Part shown: piece after piece, positions 11,047 to 19,600 of the stretch
Position numbering within the stretch: the first letter of the stretch is position 1
Layout of the letters: every line of letters begins with the position of its first letter
Origin: an uncultured Pseudomonadota bacterium
Lineage (GTDB): Bacteria > Pseudomonadota > Gammaproteobacteria > Burkholderiales > SG8-39
Direction of reading: 5' to 3'
Assembly (NCBI GenBank): GCA_903829815.1
Contig: CAIKRR010000014.1
Span: forward strand, 145,024 to 209,023
Length of the DNA: 64,000 bases
Program-made: the position numbers and the translations under genes
The notes under the pieces: generated by a model
What the model was told of the DNA's origin: nothing
What the model saw: the letters and a program-made list of their open reading frames with translations, nothing else
Database searches by the model: none

Positions 11047-11769
11047 ATGAACGAACCTGTCACCGCGCGACCGATCCGCAGCTTCGTTCTGCGTCAGGGA
11101 CGATTTTCCGATGCCCAGGAACGCGCCTGTGCCGAACTGCTGCCGCGCCTGGGCATCCCCGCCTCGCCCTCGATCGTCGACTTCGATGTGCTTTTCGGGC
11201 GACGGGCACCGCGGATACTCGAGATCGGCTTCGGCATGGGTGACTCGCTCGCCGCCACTGCGGCGGTTTACCCAGACAACGATTTCATCGGTATCGAAGT
11301 GCATTTGCCCGGCGTGGGGAGCCTGCTGCGCCAGCTCGACGAAGCGCAACTTGCCAACGTGCGGGTGATCCGACATGACGCGGTCGAGGTGCTCGAACGG
11401 ATGATTGCGCCGGACAGCCTCGCCCAGATCAATCTCTTCTTCCCTGATCCGTGGCCCAAGAAACGTCATCACAAGCGCCGTATCGTGCAGCCTGACCTCG
11501 TACGGCTGATGGCAAGCCGCCTGCAGGCAGGTGGTGTGCTGCACATGGCGACCGACTGGGCGGACTATGCCGACCACATGCTCGAGGTGGTGAACGCCGA
11601 GCCCATGCTCGAGAACACGGCCGGAGGGTTTGCCGAACGACCGGCAACACGCCCGCTGACTCGCTTCGAGCGCCGCGGCATCGCCCTTGGGCATGCGGTG
11701 CACGACCTCATTCTAAGACGCCGCGCGCCTGCGGCTAAGCAGCCAGAAACATCGCCAGCAAGTCATTGA
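11047..11769 (+). CDS. trmB: TrmB tRNA (guanine-N7-)-methyltransferase
   Basis: Methylates G46 in the variable loop of tRNAs using SAM. The 240-residue protein has the SAM motif ILEIGFGMGDSL, the IGIEVHLPGVGSLL segment and the TrmB signature INLFFPDPWPKKRHHKRRIV. The ATG at 11047 is 52 bases after thiG. Its last 35 bases overlap, tail to tail, the end of hemW on the other strand. Confidence 0.95.
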   Translation: MNEPVTARPIRSFVLRQGRFSDAQERACAELLPRLGIPASPSIVDFDVLFGRRAPRILEIGFGMGDSLAATAAVYPDNDFIGIEVHLPGVGSLLRQLDEAQLANVRVIRHDAVEVLERMIAPDSLAQINLFFPDPWPKKRHHKRRIVQPDLVRLMASRLQAGGVLHMATDWADYADHMLEVVNAEPMLENTAGGFAERPATRPLTRFERRGIALGHAVHDLILRRRAPAAKQPETSPASH

Positions 11770-12943
11770 GGAAACGCCGGCCGAGTTCGGTGGGCCTCAC
11801 CCGCACCACATCGTGCGTGATCAAGCCGCGCCGCGCCGCCTGATCAAGCACCGCGCCGATCGAAGTCGCTGCCAGCCCGGTTCGCTCAGTGAAGCGCGCC
11901 ATCTCGAACCCATCGGCAAGGCGCAGCGCATTCATCATGTACTCGCCAGCCAGATCGGCACGTGCCACCGCCTGCGACGATTGCAGGGCTCGCCCCTCGA
12001 TGGCGCGCTGCATGTAGTCGCGTGGCAGGCGAACCCTTGCCTCTCGCACGATACGATCTGGAAATGAAATCTTCGAGTGTGCCCCTGCACCAATGCCCAG
12101 GTAATCACCGAACTGCCAGTAGTTGAGATTGTGGCCGCAGCGGGCGCCAGGCCTGGCATGGGCCGAGGTCTCGTAGTGTTCGAAGCCGGCCACCGACAGC
12201 GTCTGATCGACCAGATCCTGGATGTCGGAGGCAAGGTCCTCGTCGGGCAACGGTGGCGGATGGCGCGCAAACAAGGTGTTGGGCTCGAGCGTGAGGTGAT
12301 AGGCCGACAGATGCGGCACGCCCGTTGCAATGGCCATTTCGATGTCCTCGCGCGCCTGCTCGAGCGTCTGCTCGGGCAGCGCGTACATGATGTCGAGGTT
12401 GACGTTGCCGATCGCCCGCAAGGCAGCCTCGACCGCCCGCCGCGCATCATCGGCACCGTGAATGCGCCCCAGTCTTCTCAGGTGGGCATCGTTGAAGCTC
12501 TGCACACCCACCGAGAGCCGCGTGATGCCGGCATCGTGAAACTGCCCAAAACGGGCTGCCTCGACCGTACCGGGGTTGGCCTCGAGGGTGATTTCGGCAC
12601 CGGGGGCCAGTGACACGCGCGCACGGATCGCCGACAGGATGCGATCGAGCGCAGCCCCCGAGAGCAGACTGGGCGTACCGCCACCGAAGAAAATCGTCTC
12701 GATGCGGCGTCCCCAGATGGACGGCAATGCCGACTCGAGGTCGGCGATCAGCGCCTGCGCGTAGGCCTCTTCAGGGATGGCCGCGGCAGCCTCACCGGGC
12801 TCGCGCCACTCGTGCGAGTTGAAGTCGCAGTAAGGACACTTGCGCACGCACCAGGGCACATGCACATAGAGCGACAAAGGCGGGAGCGTGGCCAGACGTA
12901 TGCCGGTGAGGCTGGCTGCGTCGATGCGCGTCTCATTGACCAT
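11735..12943 (-). CDS. hemW: HemW-like radical SAM haem chaperone
   Basis: A 402-residue radical SAM protein of the HemN/HemW family. The [4Fe-4S] motif CVRKCPYC (C-x3-C-x2-C) is near the N-terminus, followed by FFGGGTPSLL, TLEANPGT and RLSVGVQSF. The short N-terminus, and the absence of the extra residues associated with coproporphyrinogen dehydrogenase, favour HemW (haem binding and delivery) over HemN. The rdgB stop codon abuts its ATG directly, so it is the last gene of a rph-rdgB-hemW operon. Confidence 0.92.
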   Translation of the reverse strand: MVNETRIDAASLTGIRLATLPPLSLYVHVPWCVRKCPYCDFNSHEWREPGEAAAAIPEEAYAQALIADLESALPSIWGRRIETIFFGGGTPSLLSGAALDRILSAIRARVSLAPGAEITLEANPGTVEAARFGQFHDAGITRLSVGVQSFNDAHLRRLGRIHGADDARRAVEAALRAIGNVNLDIMYALPEQTLEQAREDIEMAIATGVPHLSAYHLTLEPNTLFARHPPPLPDEDLASDIQDLVDQTLSVAGFEHYETSAHARPGARCGHNLNYWQFGDYLGIGAGAHSKISFPDRIVREARVRLPRDYMQRAIEGRALQSSQAVARADLAGEYMMNALRLADGFEMARFTERTGLAATSIGAVLDQAARRGLITHDVVRVRPTELGRRFLNDLLAMFLAA

Positions 12944-13528
12944 CTAGCGCTGCAGCATGTCGAGCAGACGCGCCAGCGCGAGGGCACGATGACTGACACG
13001 GTTCTTCTCCGCGGCAGGCAACTGGGCTGCCGTGCATGCGTGCGAAGGCAGAAAGAACCAGGGGTCGTAGCCAAAGCCGCCATTGCCCGCAGGGGCCTGG
13101 GCAAGCGTGCCATGCCAGCGCCCGTCGGCAATCAGCGGTTCGGGATCGTCACCACTGCGCGCCAGAACAATGACGCAGTAGTAATGCGCGCGACGATCGC
13201 TGTGACCGGCCATGAGTTCGACCAGACGCGCATTGTTGCGCTCGTCAGATCGGGGGGCTCCGGCAAATCGTGCCGAATGCACACCCGGAGCACCGCCCAG
13301 AGCGGGCACGCAGATACCCGAATCGTCAGCCAGCGCGGGCATGCCGCCAGCGCGGGCGGCATGACGAGCCTTGGCCAGCGCATTTTCGACAAAGGTCTGA
13401 TGAGGCTCTTCAGCATCCTCGATGCCCAGTTCGCGCTGGGGCACGAGTTCGATCGACAAAGGCTCGAGAATCTGCCTGAACTCGCGCAGTTTGCCTGCGT
13501 TGGACGATGCAAGGATGACCCGCTTCAT
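12944..13528 (-). CDS. rdgB: XTP/dITP pyrophosphatase (RdgB/HAM1)
   Basis: House-cleaning enzyme (194 aa) that hydrolyses dITP and XTP so deaminated purines are not put into DNA or RNA. It has the N-terminal ILASSNAGKLREF, the central LADDSGICVPALGGAPGVHSAR and the C-terminal GGFGYDPWFF and KNRVSHRALAL signatures. It lies 15 bases after rph and directly before hemW. Confidence 0.95.
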   Translation of the reverse strand: MKRVILASSNAGKLREFRQILEPLSIELVPQRELGIEDAEEPHQTFVENALAKARHAARAGGMPALADDSGICVPALGGAPGVHSARFAGAPRSDERNNARLVELMAGHSDRRAHYYCVIVLARSGDDPEPLIADGRWHGTLAQAPAGNGGFGYDPWFFLPSHACTAAQLPAAEKNRVSHRALALARLLDMLQR

Positions 13529-13543
13529 GAGGCTACCGGATGC

Positions 13544-14257
13544 TCAGGCGATGGCGGCGCGCTGCGCCACCAGCAACTGGCCGATGCCGGCACGGGCGAG
13601 GGCAAGCAGTTTCGACAACTCGACCTCGGAGAACGCTGCGCCTTCGGCCGTGCCCTGAATTTCAACGAAACCCCCGGCACCGGTCATCACGACATTCATG
13701 TCGGTTTCGCAACCCGAGTCTTCGGTGTAGTCAAGATCGAGCATCGGCTCGCCCTGGACAATCCCGACCGAAATGGCAGCCACCTGCAGGTGCAGGGGCG
13801 AGTGCTCGAGGGTGCCCGCCGCGAGCATGCCTTGAATCGCATCATGCAAGGCGACCCAGGCGCCACTGATCGCAGCGGTGCGCGTGCCGCCATCGGCCTG
13901 GAGCACATCGCAGTCGATCGTGATGGTGCGCGGGCCCAGCGCGTCAAGGTCGACGACCGCGCGCAGCGATCGACCGATGAGGCGCTGAATCTCCTGGGTA
14001 CGCCCCGACTGCTTGCCACGGGCCGCCTCACGATCGGAACGGGTGTGCGTTGCCCGCGGCAGCATGCCGTACTCGGCGGTGACCCAGCCCCGACCGGTAC
14101 CTCGCAGGTGCCCGGGCTGTCGCTCTTCGACCGAAGCAGTCACCAGCACACGGGTGTCACCAAACTCGACCAGTACCGAGCCCTCGGCATGGCGCGTGAA
14201 GCCGCGAGTGAAACGCACGGGGCGCAACTGGTCGGGGCGGCGATCATTGTTTCTCAT
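13544..14257 (-). CDS. rph: RNase PH
   Basis: Phosphorolytic 3'-to-5' exoribonuclease that trims tRNA precursors. The 237-residue length is exactly typical, with [39 protein letters not shown] and the phosphate-binding [19 protein letters not shown]. The frame continues upstream to 14401, but the ATG at 14257 ([14 protein letters not shown]) is the family start. That ATG lies inside the 3' end of the upstream membrane-protein gene (14-base overlap), so rph is translationally tied to the Fur-controlled module before it. Confidence 0.96.
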
Positions 14258-14813
14258 GGATCTCTTCAGTCGTGAGGGCGGGAGGATTGCGGCGGGTGCG
14301 GCGACCACGCGCAAGATGCAAGAAGAAGATGGGTACGACGGCAGCGCCCAGAACCCAGTGCAGGACACTGGTGGCTGCGCGCAGCCAATCGCCACCCACA
14401 TAATAAAGCCCCCAGCCGCTCACCACGAGCAGACTCGCACCGCCCAGGAGCAAGGCACCCGCCAGGCGGTTGCGACCGGCACGCCAGGCGCGCGGCACGT
14501 GGCCTTGAATCAGTCCGCCGATCACGATGAGCGAGGCCATCGCCATTGCACCATGGACTCTCAGCGTCGCCGGGATCCAGCGCGCCAGGCACGCTTCAGG
14601 CTCGCAATCGGCGGCATCGGCAAAGTGCAGAAAGAGCCATGCCAGACCGCTTGCCGCCAACAGGACGAGGGTCGCTTCGCACACGCGACGATGCCTGGGG
14701 CTCAGACGAATGCCGCCGGGCTCGGCCCATCGATGACGGTGCCGTTCGTCGGCCGATCGGGTGGGTCGGGGGCCTCGATCGACGCGCGCCGGTGCAGAAC
14801 GACCAATGCGCAT
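14244..14813 (-). CDS. Four-helix membrane protein with five helix-associated histidines (putative b-type cytochrome)
   Basis: I do not recognise a named family with certainty; it resembles small DUF4405/ferric-reductase-like membrane proteins. The 189 residues comprise an Arg-rich N-terminal region (1-43) and four predicted membrane helices (about 46-64, 86-106, 117-140 and 148-168). His63, His87, His105, His152 and His166 lie in or at the ends of the helices. His152 and His166 are 14 residues apart, the spacing with which one helix can ligate two stacked haems. Cys70 and Cys75 lie in the first loop. The start overlaps the apbE stop (TGATG). A role in passing electrons across the membrane is inferred from context and the histidines. 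Confidence 0.72.
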
Positions 14814-15598
14814 CAGTGAATGATCCAGGCCTGGGCCCCGAACCGTGCAAGCAGCGGATGATGAGCATCGTCACTCACCGCCACCACCTTGGTGAGGGCG
14901 TCGGCGAGCGCACAGCGTGGAGCCATGACGGTGACGCCGTGACGCATCAGCACCGGCTGACCGTTGCGCGGATCGACGATCGCCGATCGGCCCGGCGCGT
15001 TGGCGTAACACGCACTTGAACTGGCCAGTGCTGCGTCATTCAGGCAGAGCGCAGCCGCGCGACGTGCCGGATCGTGCGGATCGCGCAACACGACCCGAAA
15101 CTCGCCGCGCCCGAAAGCGCGAAGATCACCGCCTGCGTTGACCAGCGCACGCCGCACCCCGGCGCGACGCAAGGCACCGACCGCCTGGTCAACTGCCTCA
15201 CCCTTGGCGATACCGCCCAGATCGATGGCAAGCGGCTCGCGTTTTGTCACGCGACCATCGCCACCGATGGCCAGGTGGGCGAGCGTGCCTGCGATCGCGC
15301 AATCGAACAAGCCGGCCGATGCGCGATGCAGTCGCAGCGCGAGGCGCAGTACACGGCGGGTCAGCGGCGCCACGACGACGGGCTCTCCGGGCAGCGCTCG
15401 ATTCAGGCGGGTCACATCACTGTGCTCGCGCCACCGGCTCATCGTGGCCTCCACCGCCTCGATCGCGGCAAAAGCGGCATCGAACGCCTGCGCATGGCAA
15501 ACCCCATCGACGCTGATTTCCACCAGCGTGCCGAGCATCGGTCGCGCCCGACGCCCGATGGTGGCATCGCGGCGGTGATCAGACGATGCCTCAAGCAT
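14813..15598 (-). CDS. apbE: ApbE-type FAD:protein FMN transferase, apparently leaderless
   Basis: Transfers FMN from FAD onto a Thr/Ser of target proteins. Family motifs are LGTLVEISV near the N-terminus, IDLGGIAKGEAVD, RALVNAGGDLRAFG and the C-terminal APRCALADALTKVV. I chose ATG 15598, which overlaps the upstream stop as ATGCTTGA (261 aa); ATG 15610 is possible. With either start the catalytic domain begins almost at once, with no signal peptide or lipobox, although most bacterial ApbE proteins that modify secreted targets are exported. It sits between its likely substrate, the FMN-binding protein, and a membrane redox protein. Confidence 0.9.
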   Translation of the reverse strand: MLEASSDHRRDATIGRRARPMLGTLVEISVDGVCHAQAFDAAFAAIEAVEATMSRWREHSDVTRLNRALPGEPVVVAPLTRRVLRLALRLHRASAGLFDCAIAGTLAHLAIGGDGRVTKREPLAIDLGGIAKGEAVDQAVGALRRAGVRRALVNAGGDLRAFGRGEFRVVLRDPHDPARRAAALCLNDAALASSSACYANAPGRSAIVDPRNGQPVLMRHGVTVMAPRCALADALTKVVAVSDDAHHPLLARFGAQAWIIH

Positions 15599-16157
15599 GA
15601 GGCAGCGCATCGGAGGCCGGGCCTGCTGTCTTTTTCGACAGCGGCCTCAAGGCGATATCCCAGGTCGCGAGCAGGCGCCGCACCCCTTCGGTCACATGGC
15701 GGCATGAGAGGGTCGCACCACCGATGTTGCGAATGTCCTCATCAACGCGAAGCTGCGCACCGACCGCCTTGCCGATGAATTGTCCGCGCCAGGCAGCGCC
15801 CCGTACTTCGTGACCATAACTTTCACGATAGTCCATGATTTCGATGCCCTTGACGGTACCGTCAGGATTCAGACCCAGGGCGTAGGTGATGCGGTCGTGC
15901 TTGCCGATCACCTCATCGACCAGAACCAGCTCGCCACCGGCACCACGCCAGAGGCGCAACTGGCGTACTCGCACCGGCAGGCCGGCCTGCGCGGCGATGG
16001 CAGCCGCCTGTGCAGGATTGAGCCCGAACGGCAACTGCTCGAAGGTCACGCCGGGAAAGAGCACCTGGCGGGCCTGCTCGGCATCGAGATAACTCGTTGC
16101 ATAGGCAGACACAGCAAGCACCGCCAGAGGCAAAGGCAACCACCGCAAGGAGGGCAT
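15591..16157 (-). CDS. Secreted FMN-binding-domain protein, likely ApbE substrate
   Basis: A 188-residue protein with a signal peptide (MPSLRWLPLPLAVLAVSAYA) and a C-terminal FMN-binding domain like that of RnfG/NqrC. The flavinylation site reads NIGGATLS (GGAT at 146-149, acceptor probably Thr149), so the usual first Ser/Thr of the S-G-A-T motif is Gly here. The region before it (TYALGLNPDGTVKGIEIMDYRESYG) is typical of the domain. The start overlaps the porin stop as TGATG and the 3' end overlaps apbE. I infer a periplasmic flavin electron carrier. Confidence 0.87.
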   Translation of the reverse strand: MPSLRWLPLPLAVLAVSAYATSYLDAEQARQVLFPGVTFEQLPFGLNPAQAAAIAAQAGLPVRVRQLRLWRGAGGELVLVDEVIGKHDRITYALGLNPDGTVKGIEIMDYRESYGHEVRGAAWRGQFIGKAVGAQLRVDEDIRNIGGATLSCRHVTEGVRRLLATWDIALRPLSKKTAGPASDALPHA

Positions 16158-17599
16158 CAGAACAGGTATCCCATGCCCAGGTTCACTCGGCTGCTGCCCG
16201 CATTGTCCAGATAGCGCTGGTAGTCGGCCTTGAACACCACCTGTGGATGGGGCCGAAACGACAGGCCCAGTGTGGCCACTCGATCGGCATTGACGCCCGA
16301 GCGATCGAAACCGGCCGGCATGGAAGCCTGGGTGTCGAAACGCTCGTAGCGTACAAACGGACTGACGCTTGCCTCACCCGAGGACCAGGCACGCCAGGCC
16401 CCCTGCACGAACCAGCCGTAGAAGGCTGAAGGCACATAGGCCCTGCTCGCGCTGTTGGCGGTATTCCAGGCAGCAAGGGTCGCGTCGATCTGCCCCGCAT
16501 CACCGATCGTTCCGCGGGCGTACAGCGCCTGCAGATCCAACCGCCCCGATTGCCAGCGGGCATGTGTCTCCCAGAGCGTGACCGGCGCGTGCACGCCGCT
16601 CAGGTCGGGCTGGGTTCGGTCAGCCAGGTAGGTGGCATTGCCCTGCCCTGCATTGCCGCGGAAGATCGCACCGCCGATCTGCAATCCGGGAACACCGCGA
16701 TAATTCAACGCCCCATAAGTGGCCAGATCGTGCGCATTGGCCAGTTGCATCTCCTGATGCGTCGATGCCAGAGGCGCCGAGGCATCACTGAACCGGGCGA
16801 TGCTGAAGCCGGTGGTGACGCCGGCGTCCCACGACCAGCCCTGGACCGTGGTTCCCGAAAGCCCGACTCCGCCTTCTCGCCAGGTGCTCGGAATGATGCG
16901 GGTTTCGACCGCGTTGCGCTCGACGCCGTAATAGGCAGGCGGCTCATGCGCCTGGTTGATGAACCCGAAGGGCATCAGGTACAAACCCGTCTTGACTGAC
17001 AGCGAAGGCGCGATGGCATAGTCGATGTAGGCCTGCTCGATGGCGCTCTCGCCTGCGTCGCTGGCACTGGTAACAGCGTGCTCCCACTCGATCTCGCCGA
17101 CAAACGACAGGCGCTCATCAAAGCGGTGGTTCAGGCCAATGACGAACCGACGCAGATCGGCCCGACTGCGACTCGAGTCGCGCAGGTACCGGTTGTAGTT
17201 CAGTTCGCCATAGCCGCTGACCACGGTTGCCGGTTCTGCGGCGAAGACAGGGTCTGCAGCGCTTGCAGGTTCTGCAGCGATGGGTCGTTTTTCAAGGGTC
17301 GCCGGCTTCGCAGCGCTTGCGGCCTGTGCACCCAGGCTCGAGGCGCCAGACGGATCGCCCACCCGATCGGGTTGCGGTAGTCGAGTGCTGTCTCTGCCAC
17401 CGGTGGCGACATGACTCTCCAGATCGGCAATCCGGCGTTGCAATGATTCGATCAGGGCGCTCATGCGCTCGATCTGAGTCAGCATGGCTGCTTCGTCAGC
17501 CCGGGTGGTCGTAATCGGCAAGAACCACAGGGCGACAGCGACGACTCGGCAGGTCATGCTGCACCGCGGCGCAGGCCGTTGACGAGATTGAGGGGGCAT
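16157..17599 (-). CDS. Outer-membrane beta-barrel porin with coiled-coil N-terminus
   Basis: A 480-residue predicted porin, first gene of the Fur-controlled unit. A signal peptide (core MTCRVVAVALWFLPITTTRA) is followed by a short coiled coil (LTQIERMSALIESLQRRIAD), an Ala/Pro-rich linker and a barrel that ends in YLF, with the terminal Phe used by the outer-membrane assembly machinery. It resembles phosphate-selective porin O/P-like proteins. ATG 17599 was chosen because AAGGA precedes it at the right distance; 17557 is the alternative. The substrate is unknown; Fur control and the flavin genes downstream suggest an iron-related role. Confidence 0.8.
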   Translation of the reverse strand: MPPQSRQRPAPRCSMTCRVVAVALWFLPITTTRADEAAMLTQIERMSALIESLQRRIADLESHVATGGRDSTRLPQPDRVGDPSGASSLGAQAASAAKPATLEKRPIAAEPASAADPVFAAEPATVVSGYGELNYNRYLRDSSRSRADLRRFVIGLNHRFDERLSFVGEIEWEHAVTSASDAGESAIEQAYIDYAIAPSLSVKTGLYLMPFGFINQAHEPPAYYGVERNAVETRIIPSTWREGGVGLSGTTVQGWSWDAGVTTGFSIARFSDASAPLASTHQEMQLANAHDLATYGALNYRGVPGLQIGGAIFRGNAGQGNATYLADRTQPDLSGVHAPVTLWETHARWQSGRLDLQALYARGTIGDAGQIDATLAAWNTANSASRAYVPSAFYGWFVQGAWRAWSSGEASVSPFVRYERFDTQASMPAGFDRSGVNADRVATLGLSFRPHPQVVFKADYQRYLDNAGSSRVNLGMGYLF

Positions 17600-17673: not shown

Positions 17674-17702
17674 GTAATATAAATGAGAATCATTTACATT
17701 AC
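17674..17702. promoter_or_regulatory. Fur box
   Basis: A 29-base near-perfect palindrome: GTAATATAAATGA, then GAA, then TCATTTACATTAC, with 12 of 13 arm positions matching. Its core AAATGAGAATCATTT matches the Fur consensus GATAATGATAATCATTATC at 13 of 19 positions, including the whole AATGA/AATCATT centre. It lies across the core promoter reading into the porin gene, so iron-loaded Fur would block RNA polymerase. Confidence 0.88.
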
Positions 17703-17704
17703 AA
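17676..17704 (-). promoter_or_regulatory. Sigma-70 promoter of the porin/flavin operon
   Basis: On the minus strand TTGTAA (17699-17704) and TATATT (17676-17681) are separated by exactly 17 bases. The Fur palindrome fills the spacer and overlaps both hexamers. Transcription would start near 17668, giving a leader of about 70 bases. Confidence 0.75.
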
Positions 17705-17714
17705 GATCCGTCGT

Positions 17715-18641
17715 TCAGAGCTTGCCGCTCGTCCCCGCATCGCTGATCGCGCCCCGGATCTCCCGGATTGCGCGTTCAATCTCGTCATCACTCAGAAAGT
17801 CTGCCGCACCATCCTTGCCAAAGCCGGCGGTCTGGGTCGCGACGTCGCTCATCTGCATCGTCTTGGTGGAAATGGATCGCGGCACCTCCGGGTCCAGCGC
17901 CTCCTCACCCAGCCATGCGAGGCCGATTGCGCTCAGATTGTCGCCATCGCTCCCAGCCCGTGCTTCGGCCGTATTCATCATCGCTGGCATGGCCTTGAGC
18001 ACCTCATCCTTGAGGACAGCCTCGACAATGGTTCGCGTGCTCAGAGGGCCCCACAGCCCATCGGTGCACAAGAGGATCGTATCGCCGCGCCGCAGAGGCG
18101 TGCGGCGCGAGGTTTCGATGCGTGGCAGGTGGCTCTGCCCGAGACAGTTGTAGACCTTGTTGCGATCGGGGTGGTTGGCAACCGCCTCCTCGCGCACCCG
18201 ACCGATATCGACCAGCTGTTGAACCCGCGAGTGGTCCTTGGTCACCGCATGGACTTGACCATCTCGAATCAGGTACAGGCGCGAGTCGCCCACATGAGCC
18301 CAGAAGGCCACTCCCCCCTGGATCACGCAGGCGACGAAAGTCGTTCGAGGCGTCTCGGGCATGTTGCGCCCTTCGGCGTAACCGAGGATGGCCAGGTGGG
18401 CATTGGTGATGGAATCGAGCAGAAAACGCAGTGGATCCTCCAGGCGCGGCCGCGCCTGGCTCTGGAATGCTTCGATCAGGAACTTGACCGCGATATGCGC
18501 GGCGATCTCGCCATGCAGGTGCCCTCCCATTCCGTCGGCCACAGCCATGATCAGCGACTCGCGGCTGTAGCTGTAGGCGATCCTGTCCTGGTTGCTCTTT
18601 CGGCTGCCCTGACGGCTTTCCTGGTGAATGAGAAAACGCAT
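17715..18641 (-). CDS. PP2C/PPM-family Ser/Thr protein phosphatase
   Basis: A 308-residue metal-dependent phosphatase. Motifs in order are SNQDRIAYS, VADGMGGHLHGEIAA, AHVGDSRLYLIRDGQ, LLCTDGLWGPLS and DGDNLSAI, which supply the conserved metal-binding aspartates. A tail of about 60 residues follows the domain. The ATG at 18641 overlaps the kinase stop as TGATG, so kinase and phosphatase are made together and probably act on the same substrates. The Fur-controlled promoter of the next operon begins 13 bases after its stop. Confidence 0.92.
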   Translation of the reverse strand: MRFLIHQESRQGSRKSNQDRIAYSYSRESLIMAVADGMGGHLHGEIAAHIAVKFLIEAFQSQARPRLEDPLRFLLDSITNAHLAILGYAEGRNMPETPRTTFVACVIQGGVAFWAHVGDSRLYLIRDGQVHAVTKDHSRVQQLVDIGRVREEAVANHPDRNKVYNCLGQSHLPRIETSRRTPLRRGDTILLCTDGLWGPLSTRTIVEAVLKDEVLKAMPAMMNTAEARAGSDGDNLSAIGLAWLGEEALDPEVPRSISTKTMQMSDVATQTAGFGKDGAADFLSDDEIERAIREIRGAISDAGTSGKL

Positions 18642-19600
18642 CAAAGCTCCCGCGAACGACCGGCAAGAAGACCCAGTGAACTACGCAATCCGGCCACGAA
18701 GGTGCGCCGACCTGCGACGGCAGGGTCACGCTCGCGCAGCAGTACTTTCTGCAAGGCGAGCGCACTCTGCGGGCGACGCAGATGGTCGATCTGCAGACAC
18801 CAGTCGATGGTCTCGAGCAGTTGCACCGTATACCGGTCGGAAAACTGCTCGACCGCAGGCACGTAGCGATCCTGCTGGACACGCTGATCAGCCGGGGGCG
18901 GCGCCTGTCCGGACAGACAGGCGTACATGGCTGCGCCTACGCTGTAGAGATCACTCCAGGGCCCCATCAGCTCACGCTGGCGATACTGCTCGGGTGGCGC
19001 ATAGCCGGGCGTGTACATCGGGCTGAGCGAGTACTCCGATTCGGTCAGCATCTGACGAGCTGCACCAAAGTCGATGAGCACCGGCGTGTCATCTTCGCGC
19101 ACGTAGATGTTGGCGGGCTTCAGGTCAAGGTGAAGCAGCTTGTTGGTGTGGACCTCGCGCAGACCATTGAGCATGAGCGTCATGACGCGCCGGATGTAGT
19201 TTTCGCGCAGCGCGCCTCGATTGCGTGCGATGTCCTCCTGCAAGGTGCGCCCCTGCTCGTAACGCATCACCAGATAAACCGTCTGGTTGGCGCGAAAGAA
19301 GTTGAGCACCCGAATCACATTGGGGTGAGACAGCCGCGCCAGCGAACGCCCTTCCTCGAAGAAACATTTCATGCCGTAGCGGAACACGGCCAGGTTTTCC
19401 TCGGGCACGGCGGGCACCACATCACCCTCCTGGCGCAGGGCGAGCGAGGCCGGCAGATACTCCTTGATGGCAACCTGCCCACCCTGTTCGTCGGCGCCCA
19501 GATAGACGAGCGAAAACCCGCCCGAGGAGAGCAGCCGCTCGATGCGGTAGCCCTGCAGCTGATAACCGTCAGGCAATGGCTGGTTGTTGTGTGATGGCAT
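18641..19600 (-). CDS. Bacterial Ser/Thr protein kinase (Hanks type)
   Basis: A 319-residue soluble kinase with no membrane segment. It has a Gly-rich loop (SSGGFSLVYLG), catalytic lysine in VAIKEYLP, catalytic loop HLDLKPANI, the metal-binding DFGAARQ and APPEQY at the end of the activation segment. The paired PP2C phosphatase overlaps its stop. The pair lies divergent to yicC in many Burkholderiales; substrates are not evident from the sequence. Confidence 0.92.
   Translation of the reverse strand: MPSHNNQPLPDGYQLQGYRIERLLSSGGFSLVYLGADEQGGQVAIKEYLPASLALRQEGDVVPAVPEENLAVFRYGMKCFFEEGRSLARLSHPNVIRVLNFFRANQTVYLVMRYEQGRTLQEDIARNRGALRENYIRRVMTLMLNGLREVHTNKLLHLDLKPANIYVREDDTPVLIDFGAARQMLTESEYSLSPMYTPGYAPPEQYRQRELMGPWSDLYSVGAAMYACLSGQAPPPADQRVQQDRYVPAVEQFSDRYTVQLLETIDWCLQIDHLRRPQSALALQKVLLRERDPAVAGRRTFVAGLRSSLGLLAGRSREL

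Follow-up and report, generated by a model that had tools for sequence, protein, structure and literature searches.

We analyzed a 64,000-nucleotide stretch of the genome of an uncultured Pseudomonadota bacterium (contig CAIKRR010000014.1; the whole stretch is referred to as the window) and report a palindromic Fur-type operator in front of a four-gene operon encoding a porin, a flavin mononucleotide (FMN)-binding protein, the flavin transferase ApbE, and a multi-His membrane protein. We propose, with a probability of about 0.72, that this operon is a Fur-repressed reductive iron-uptake module, which would be switched on under iron shortage. The proposal starts from features read in the sequence itself, namely the box, the promoter, the overlapping gene order, the conservation of His residues and of a Thr, and the presence of the same box at feoA.

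The operator is a 29-bp palindrome at 17674-17702, not assigned to either strand, with its center at 17688, a 19-bp core at 17682-17700, and 12 of 14 arm positions complementary. A first-pass annotation, made from the letters of the window, had described a 29-base palindrome with 12 of 13 matching arm positions and an end at 17704. The palindrome itself was found again, the arm count had to be corrected, and 17704 proved to be the end of the -35 hexamer rather than of the palindrome, which ends at 17702. The operator overlaps a sigma-70-type promoter, recognized by hexamer match on the minus strand (17676-17704), with TTGTAA at 17704-17699 as the -35 element, a 17-nt spacer, and TATATT at 17681-17676 as the -10 element, in agreement with the TTGTAA-N17-TATATT arrangement originally proposed. 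It is the only promoter-like site between 14000 and 18000 and matches at 9 of 12 positions; since shuffled sequences already give 0.6 such sites, the promoter by itself is not above chance. In the sister species (G001), the leader is poorly conserved outside the island formed by operator and promoter.

The genome to which the window belongs comprises 4.2 Mb in 98 contigs and is 98% complete. A search of all 4.2 Mb with the strict pattern AATGAGAATNATTCTCATT, allowing up to three mismatches, returned two places, the promoter described here (two mismatches) and feoA (no mismatch), where the box is a perfect palindrome preceding feoA-feoB (contig 94). The reversed pattern gave no match in the same search, and about 0.004 sites at up to two mismatches and 0.09 at up to three are expected per 4.2 Mb, assuming independent bases at the 64% GC of the window. 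Within the window, the looser pattern AAATGAGAATCATTT (up to three mismatches) matched only at the operator, once per strand; this test is weaker, as two matches also arose in 7 of 100 shuffled sequences. A 19-bp Fur consensus reached 13 of 19 positions in the window, a weak result equaled by 3 of 100 shuffles, and a fitted matrix was therefore used. The genome encodes a canonical Fur (NF006999, 182.3 bits; cut-off, 146). The sequence evidence that the palindrome is a Fur operator lying over the operon promoter is strong, and the proposed match to the Fur box stands. A chance palindrome is ruled out by the genome-wide pattern counts, the expected numbers, and the boxes in the leaders of relatives, and an operator for another regulator of the Fur family is ruled out as well, considering that the box fits Fur and recurs at feoA and that canonical Fur is encoded. 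A second Fur-family protein of this genome (L002:1132-1773) is Irr/PerR-like and falls below every NCBIfam cut-off.

For comparison, 87 loci were profiled. Besides the window, these were the best 80 of 258 loci encoding a relative in a genome scan and six stretches taken from related genomes. Counts over 80 loci (leader scans, barrel and gene order counts) omit L010, L011, and L012, which are the places of L016, L056, and L059; L076 and L077, which are from Ralstonia pickettii like L074; L089, which resembles L088; and L015, a second locus of G039 that does carry the box. Leaders of 500 bases were searched for a palindromic motif, with no sequence supplied and the window excluded, and tAATGAGAATcATTCTCATTT was recovered from 58 leaders of operons not headed by a MauG-type gene (log-likelihood ratio of 337 versus 51 and 53 in shuffled controls; estimated fraction of leaders bearing a site, 0.66). 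In a separate run, the 21 MauG-led leaders yielded a nearly identical motif (ratio of 229 versus 41 and 41; estimated fraction, 0.91); the shuffled controls had half as many restarts as the real run. A matrix was then fitted on the 58 non-MauG leaders, leaving the window and the MauG-led group out of sample, with 1,878 tiles from the same loci as the background. It placed 57 of 80 leaders above the 99% background level, 58 of the 80 having been used in fitting: 4/4 led by FTR1, 24/30 by the DUF6662-type barrel, 7/12 by the porin (window included), 19/21 by MauG, and 3/13 by other genes. The window leader scored 25.2, a value attained by 0.1% of the tiles. MauG-led loci had appeared to be devoid of the box when the leader was set at the porin, a view dropped when the scan upstream of MauG detected it in 19 of 21. 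Of 75 leaders (five of the 80 were shorter than 400 bases and were dropped), 49 agreed with a general Fur consensus at 10 or more of its 14 positions, compared to 142 of 1,847 tiles (7.7%).

Loci added later gave the same picture. In all seven such loci from five genera, which played no part in the fitting, the best site lay in the operon leader, with scores of 19.8 to 27.4 against a 99% level of 13.7; their leaders were assigned on the basis of the longest frames and of profile matches. By blastn, only short stretches of 71 to 79% identity to the earlier set were detected, in two of the seven. Both plasmid-borne copies of the operon, L144 and L145 (Sphingomonas parapaucimobilis and Ideonella dechloratans), carry a Fur-like box in the leader; these copies may be kin to some of the 80 loci. 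The box is conserved across most relatives examined. The search for the four genes with a Fur box in related genomes, which the first-pass annotation had suggested, was thus positive for 57 of 80 leaders and 9 of 9 later loci. Homologous operons consistently lacking the box, named there as evidence against the idea, were the opposite of what we found, the box having been recovered even by the sequence-free palindrome search. In two of the seven, L137 (3709-4240) and L139 (2534-3068), both from one genus, two small open reading frames, one of them Cys-rich, lie between box and barrel, in a gap of about 600 bases.

Six related genomes contained 15 places matching the strict pattern, 12 of them at iron genes or at the operon or its variants. 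Such sites were found at feoA in G001, G002, G027, and G039, and at the operon or variants in G001, G006, G009, G027, and G039; others were located at a cupredoxin-FTR1 gene pair in G002 and at Bfd-type and hemP genes in G039. No recognized iron gene was present at the remaining three places (L117, L119, and L125). G002 belongs to the same genus and is devoid of the FMN gene; its second strong Fur-like box lies at the cupredoxin-FTR1 pair (L121, G002:C1:276855), as if one system for iron had taken the place of the other.

The promoter was expected to read into a porin, an FMN-binding protein, ApbE, and a multi-His membrane protein, and these were confirmed as four minus-strand genes that abut or overlap by a few bases. 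The porin gene (16157-17599, ATG at 17599) encodes a protein with a likely signal peptide and a predicted helix at residues 37-68, which passes the Porin_O_P cut-off narrowly (21.9 bits versus 20.9). Its AlphaFold2 model (mean predicted local distance difference test score [pLDDT], 82.1) shows 16 long strands forming a barrel after the N-terminal helix, and Foldseek matched it to OmpT-, OmpC-, OmpF-, and OprP-type porins, OprP (2o4v) being among the matches. OprP prefers anions. The FMN_bind gene (15591-16157; 40.7 bits) has its start overlapping the porin stop, and its product has a likely signal peptide and a predicted FMN acceptor, Thr149, within GGAT. This Thr is kept in all 80 FMN_bind proteins, and the first position of the acceptor motif [S/T]GA[S/T] is Ser or Thr in 75 of 80 and Gly in the window protein. 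The ApbE gene (flavin adenine dinucleotide [FAD]:protein FMN transferase; 14813-15610) scored 147.3 bits, and its product has no signal peptide.

The last gene (14244-14813) encodes a 189-residue, four-helix membrane protein resembling cytochrome b561/DUF4405, with four conserved His residues at positions 87, 105, 152, and 166. His87 and His105 are kept in 71 of 71 such proteins, and His152 and His166 in 69 of 71. The b561 score of the window protein (18.7 bits) is below the cut-off of 30.1, and the Pfam profile comparison listed no DUF4405 match for it; the E value is 0.01 or better for b561 in 20 of 45 relatives and for DUF4405 in 11. The model consists of four long helices (mean pLDDT, 86.5). 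Fold matches include the cytochromes b of hydrogenase-1, the b6f complex, superoxide oxidase, and formate dehydrogenase-N, all within helical-bundle noise, and no Foldseek match reached an E value of 0.001, which leaves similarity at the level of the bundle. Cytochromes of the b561 type are known as quinol dependent. No window protein matched PepSY at an E value of 0.1.

The order barrel, FMN_bind, ApbE, membrane protein occurs in 63 of 87 loci (58 of 80 after removal of duplicates). A barrel gene stands directly 5' of the FMN_bind gene in 68 of 80 loci, 34 of them porin-like and 34 of a shorter type, whose three Pfam-checked members all match DUF6662, a family for which our literature search found no paper. 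A diheme MauG/CCP-type gene (four were Pfam-checked) precedes the porin in 21 of 80 loci, namely, L034, L039, L041, L052, L057, L059, L065, L069 to L071, L078, L081, L083, L084, L088, and L090 to L095. In L014, L015, and L143, a PepSY_TM protein scoring over the cut-off adjoins the FMN carrier, and the four-helix protein was not found at these loci, the L143 stretch ending soon after. According to the depositors' labels, the record titles span Pseudomonadota, Verrucomicrobiota, and Omnitrophota, among others. The family is patchy: in a sample of 274 genomes of the class it was present in 8, with the window's own genome counted, and in the set of relatives in 6 of 41.

As to the surroundings of the operon in the window, genes for RNase PH and for Ham1-type and HemN/HemW-type proteins closely follow it on the minus strand (11735-14260). 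Only one minus-strand terminator-like site was detected between 14000 and 18000, inside the porin gene, so iron control may extend into these downstream genes. Directly upstream of the operator, on the same strand, are genes for a PP2C-type phosphatase and a Ser/Thr kinase (17715-19600), and a related kinase reading frame lies close to the operon in the sister genome as well (L016).

Since the Fur box is common to the operons of most relatives examined and to feoA, the operon likely reduces iron for import. This is supported by genes for FTR1, FeoAB, or P19-FTR1 in or beside the operons of relatives. Iron importer genes of these three kinds were found in 7 of 87 loci: FTR1 leads the operon in L013, L014, L047, and L051; feoA-feoB lie downstream in the Omnitrophota records L023 and L049; and P19, cupredoxin, and FTR1 genes are downstream in L086. 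No box above the 99% level was found in L023, L049, and L086. The window genome encodes FeoB (470 bits), and at its 98% completeness no FTR1 was found. TonB-type barrels were matched seven times in this genome, in no case at a strict-pattern site.

From these features we infer Fur binding, heme and flavin in the respective proteins, a quinol donor, an Fe(III) acceptor, and a porin cargo, which would act together as follows. With plentiful iron, Fe(II)-Fur would lie across both promoter hexamers, -35 and -10, and so keep the operon silent. At low iron, the operon and feoAB would be derepressed together, their boxes being the only two strong ones found in the genome. Small, perhaps anionic, ferric chelates might then enter by diffusion through the porin. 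The membrane cytochrome would hand electrons from the quinol pool to the covalent FMN, attached by ApbE, of the exported carrier, which would reduce Fe(III) in the periplasm, and the resulting Fe(II) would be imported by FeoB. The first-pass annotation had suggested a Fur-controlled flavin electron-transfer system, perhaps reducing ferric iron at the cell surface. Iron reduction gains support from the box at feoA and the linked importers, and the site shifts: given a barrel model that looks like an ordinary porin of 16 strands, reduction is more likely to take place in the periplasm than at the surface. Should the proposal be correct, weak ferric chelates would be usable without a siderophore receptor, and four genes of unclear role would be tied to a single probable function, the reduction of iron for import.

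A point on which the initial observation was silent is the missing export signal of ApbE. ApbE has been described as an enzyme that is typically exported or lipidated, and a signal-less Klebsiella ApbE as acting on a soluble fumarate reductase (PMC12052999). Here, a hydrophobic leader is absent from 67 of 69 aligned ApbE proteins, including that of the window; the exceptions, judged by hydropathy only, are L014 and L053. The FMN_bind partners have a leader over the threshold in 61 of 79 relatives, and most of the 18 below it miss by no more than 0.3 units and still look like short signal peptides by eye. Both checks used hydropathy rather than a signal-peptide predictor and left out L010, L011, L012, L076, L077, and sequences gapped at the anchor column. 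The ApbE gene in the operon is the only one found in the window genome. In a search of 12 genomes, G000, G001, G006, G027, G190, and G302 each had one ApbE and one FMN_bind protein, both in the operon; FMN_bind was the only substrate family sought, and in these six only, other flavinylation substrates being of the DUF2271 and DUF3570 types. G009 has one ApbE, with a leader, and the remaining five genomes have two or three ApbE matches.

This raises a question for protein export: with a single ApbE found in the genome, and that one devoid of an export signal, how does the exported carrier acquire its flavin? The carrier may receive FMN from this ApbE before it is exported, ApbE may itself leave the cytosol despite having no signal, or the carrier may not be flavinylated in the usual manner. 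It is possible, though we consider it rather doubtful, that the operon represents a widespread undescribed module in which ApbE, having no leader, stays in the cytosol and draws on the FAD there to attach FMN to the still unfolded carrier; the carrier is then exported via Sec with FMN bound. Flavinylation before export would make FAD export unneeded and break the rule that ApbE acts periplasmically on exported proteins. In L086 (6869-8416), a single open frame of 515 residues, headed by a signal-like leader, spans the FMN_bind carrier and ApbE, so that the two would share a compartment. This counts against a purely cytosolic ApbE at that locus, where the frame may be a real fusion or reflect a lost stop; the porin gene there is broken into two frames, so a sequence error is possible.

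Fur control by itself names no substrate, and the operon could instead serve an iron-sparing swap, in which a flavin-based periplasmic carrier replaces heme or Fe-S carriers under scarcity and reduces no iron. The replacement of ferredoxin by flavodoxin is a precedent, and the diheme MauG/CCP-type gene heading 21 of 80 loci is a possible other redox partner. Flavinylation has also been suggested as a possible advantage in iron-poor environments (PMC8238504). However, the four conserved His residues point to hemes in the membrane partner, with more of them contributed by MauG, so that no iron would be spared; moreover, the linked genes encode iron permeases, and the genome has its other strong box at feoA. 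We therefore regard this swap as unlikely.

Still less probable is a role of porin and FMN carrier as an electron conduit through the outer membrane, with iron reduced at the surface or outside. A barrel gene as the immediate upstream neighbor of the FMN gene (68 of 80 loci) and the predicted N-terminal helix outside the barrel would suit such a conduit. However, the 16-strand OmpC/OprP-like model is probably too narrow for an FMN_bind domain, and a different barrel type occupies the same place in 34 of the 68 loci, which fits a solute pore better than a fitted conduit. Equally improbable is that the module reduces another metal or chelate, such as copper, as the heavy-metal P-type ATPase gene directly upstream of the R. 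pickettii operon (L074:3666-5984) might suggest, or strips iron from siderophores entering via TonB receptors, for which the seven TonB-type barrels of the genome and the PepSY protein HiuB, needed for siderophore use and resembling the ferri-siderophore reductase FoxB (PMC13001220), could be cited; the feoA box and the iron permeases of relatives indicate iron and Fe(II) import, and none of the seven barrels is at a strict-pattern site.

The first-pass annotation did not know the four-gene set as a described system, and our literature searches, thin on subscription journals, found no account of it; several known systems are related. For PepSY-like and MsrQ-like flavinylation systems (PMC8238504; PMC12004947), Fur repression is reported in Shewanella and Caulobacter, with ferric reduction proposed or supported, and an extracytosolic iron reductase activity is reported for the PepSY-like VciB (PMC8238504). 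These systems, including Caulobacter CCNA_03155-03159, share with the operon a substrate for flavinylation, a membrane protein bearing His residues and, in most cases, ApbE. In contrast to them, the membrane part here is a short four-helix b561-like protein rather than PepSY or MsrQ, a porin or DUF6662-type barrel forms the outer part, and ApbE has no signal peptide. Flavinylation-associated membrane cytochromes encoded near apbE also have four conserved His residues (PMC10979944), and 11 of 45 relatives here match the DUF4405 of that paper. However, the DUF4405 cytochromes are described there as six-helix proteins, often accompanied by a flavin transporter and by a flavodoxin as the substrate, whereas the window protein has four helices and no DUF4405 match; the term porin is absent from that text. 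P19-FTR1 uptake with FMN_bind (PMC8238504) is comparable to L013, L014, L047, L051, and L086, where FMN_bind occurs by FTR1 or P19, whereas the window genome, in which no FTR1 was found, appears to use FeoAB. The Caulobacter hiuABC operon is likewise Fur regulated, with an inner-membrane reductase candidate and FeoAB as the proposed Fe(II) importer, but comprises a TonB receptor and a PepSY protein, and the text of PMC13001220 does not contain the terms ApbE, FMN, and porin. Electron transfer based on flavinylation is known; new is the variant described here, combining a porin or DUF6662-type barrel, a short b561-like membrane protein, and a leaderless ApbE.
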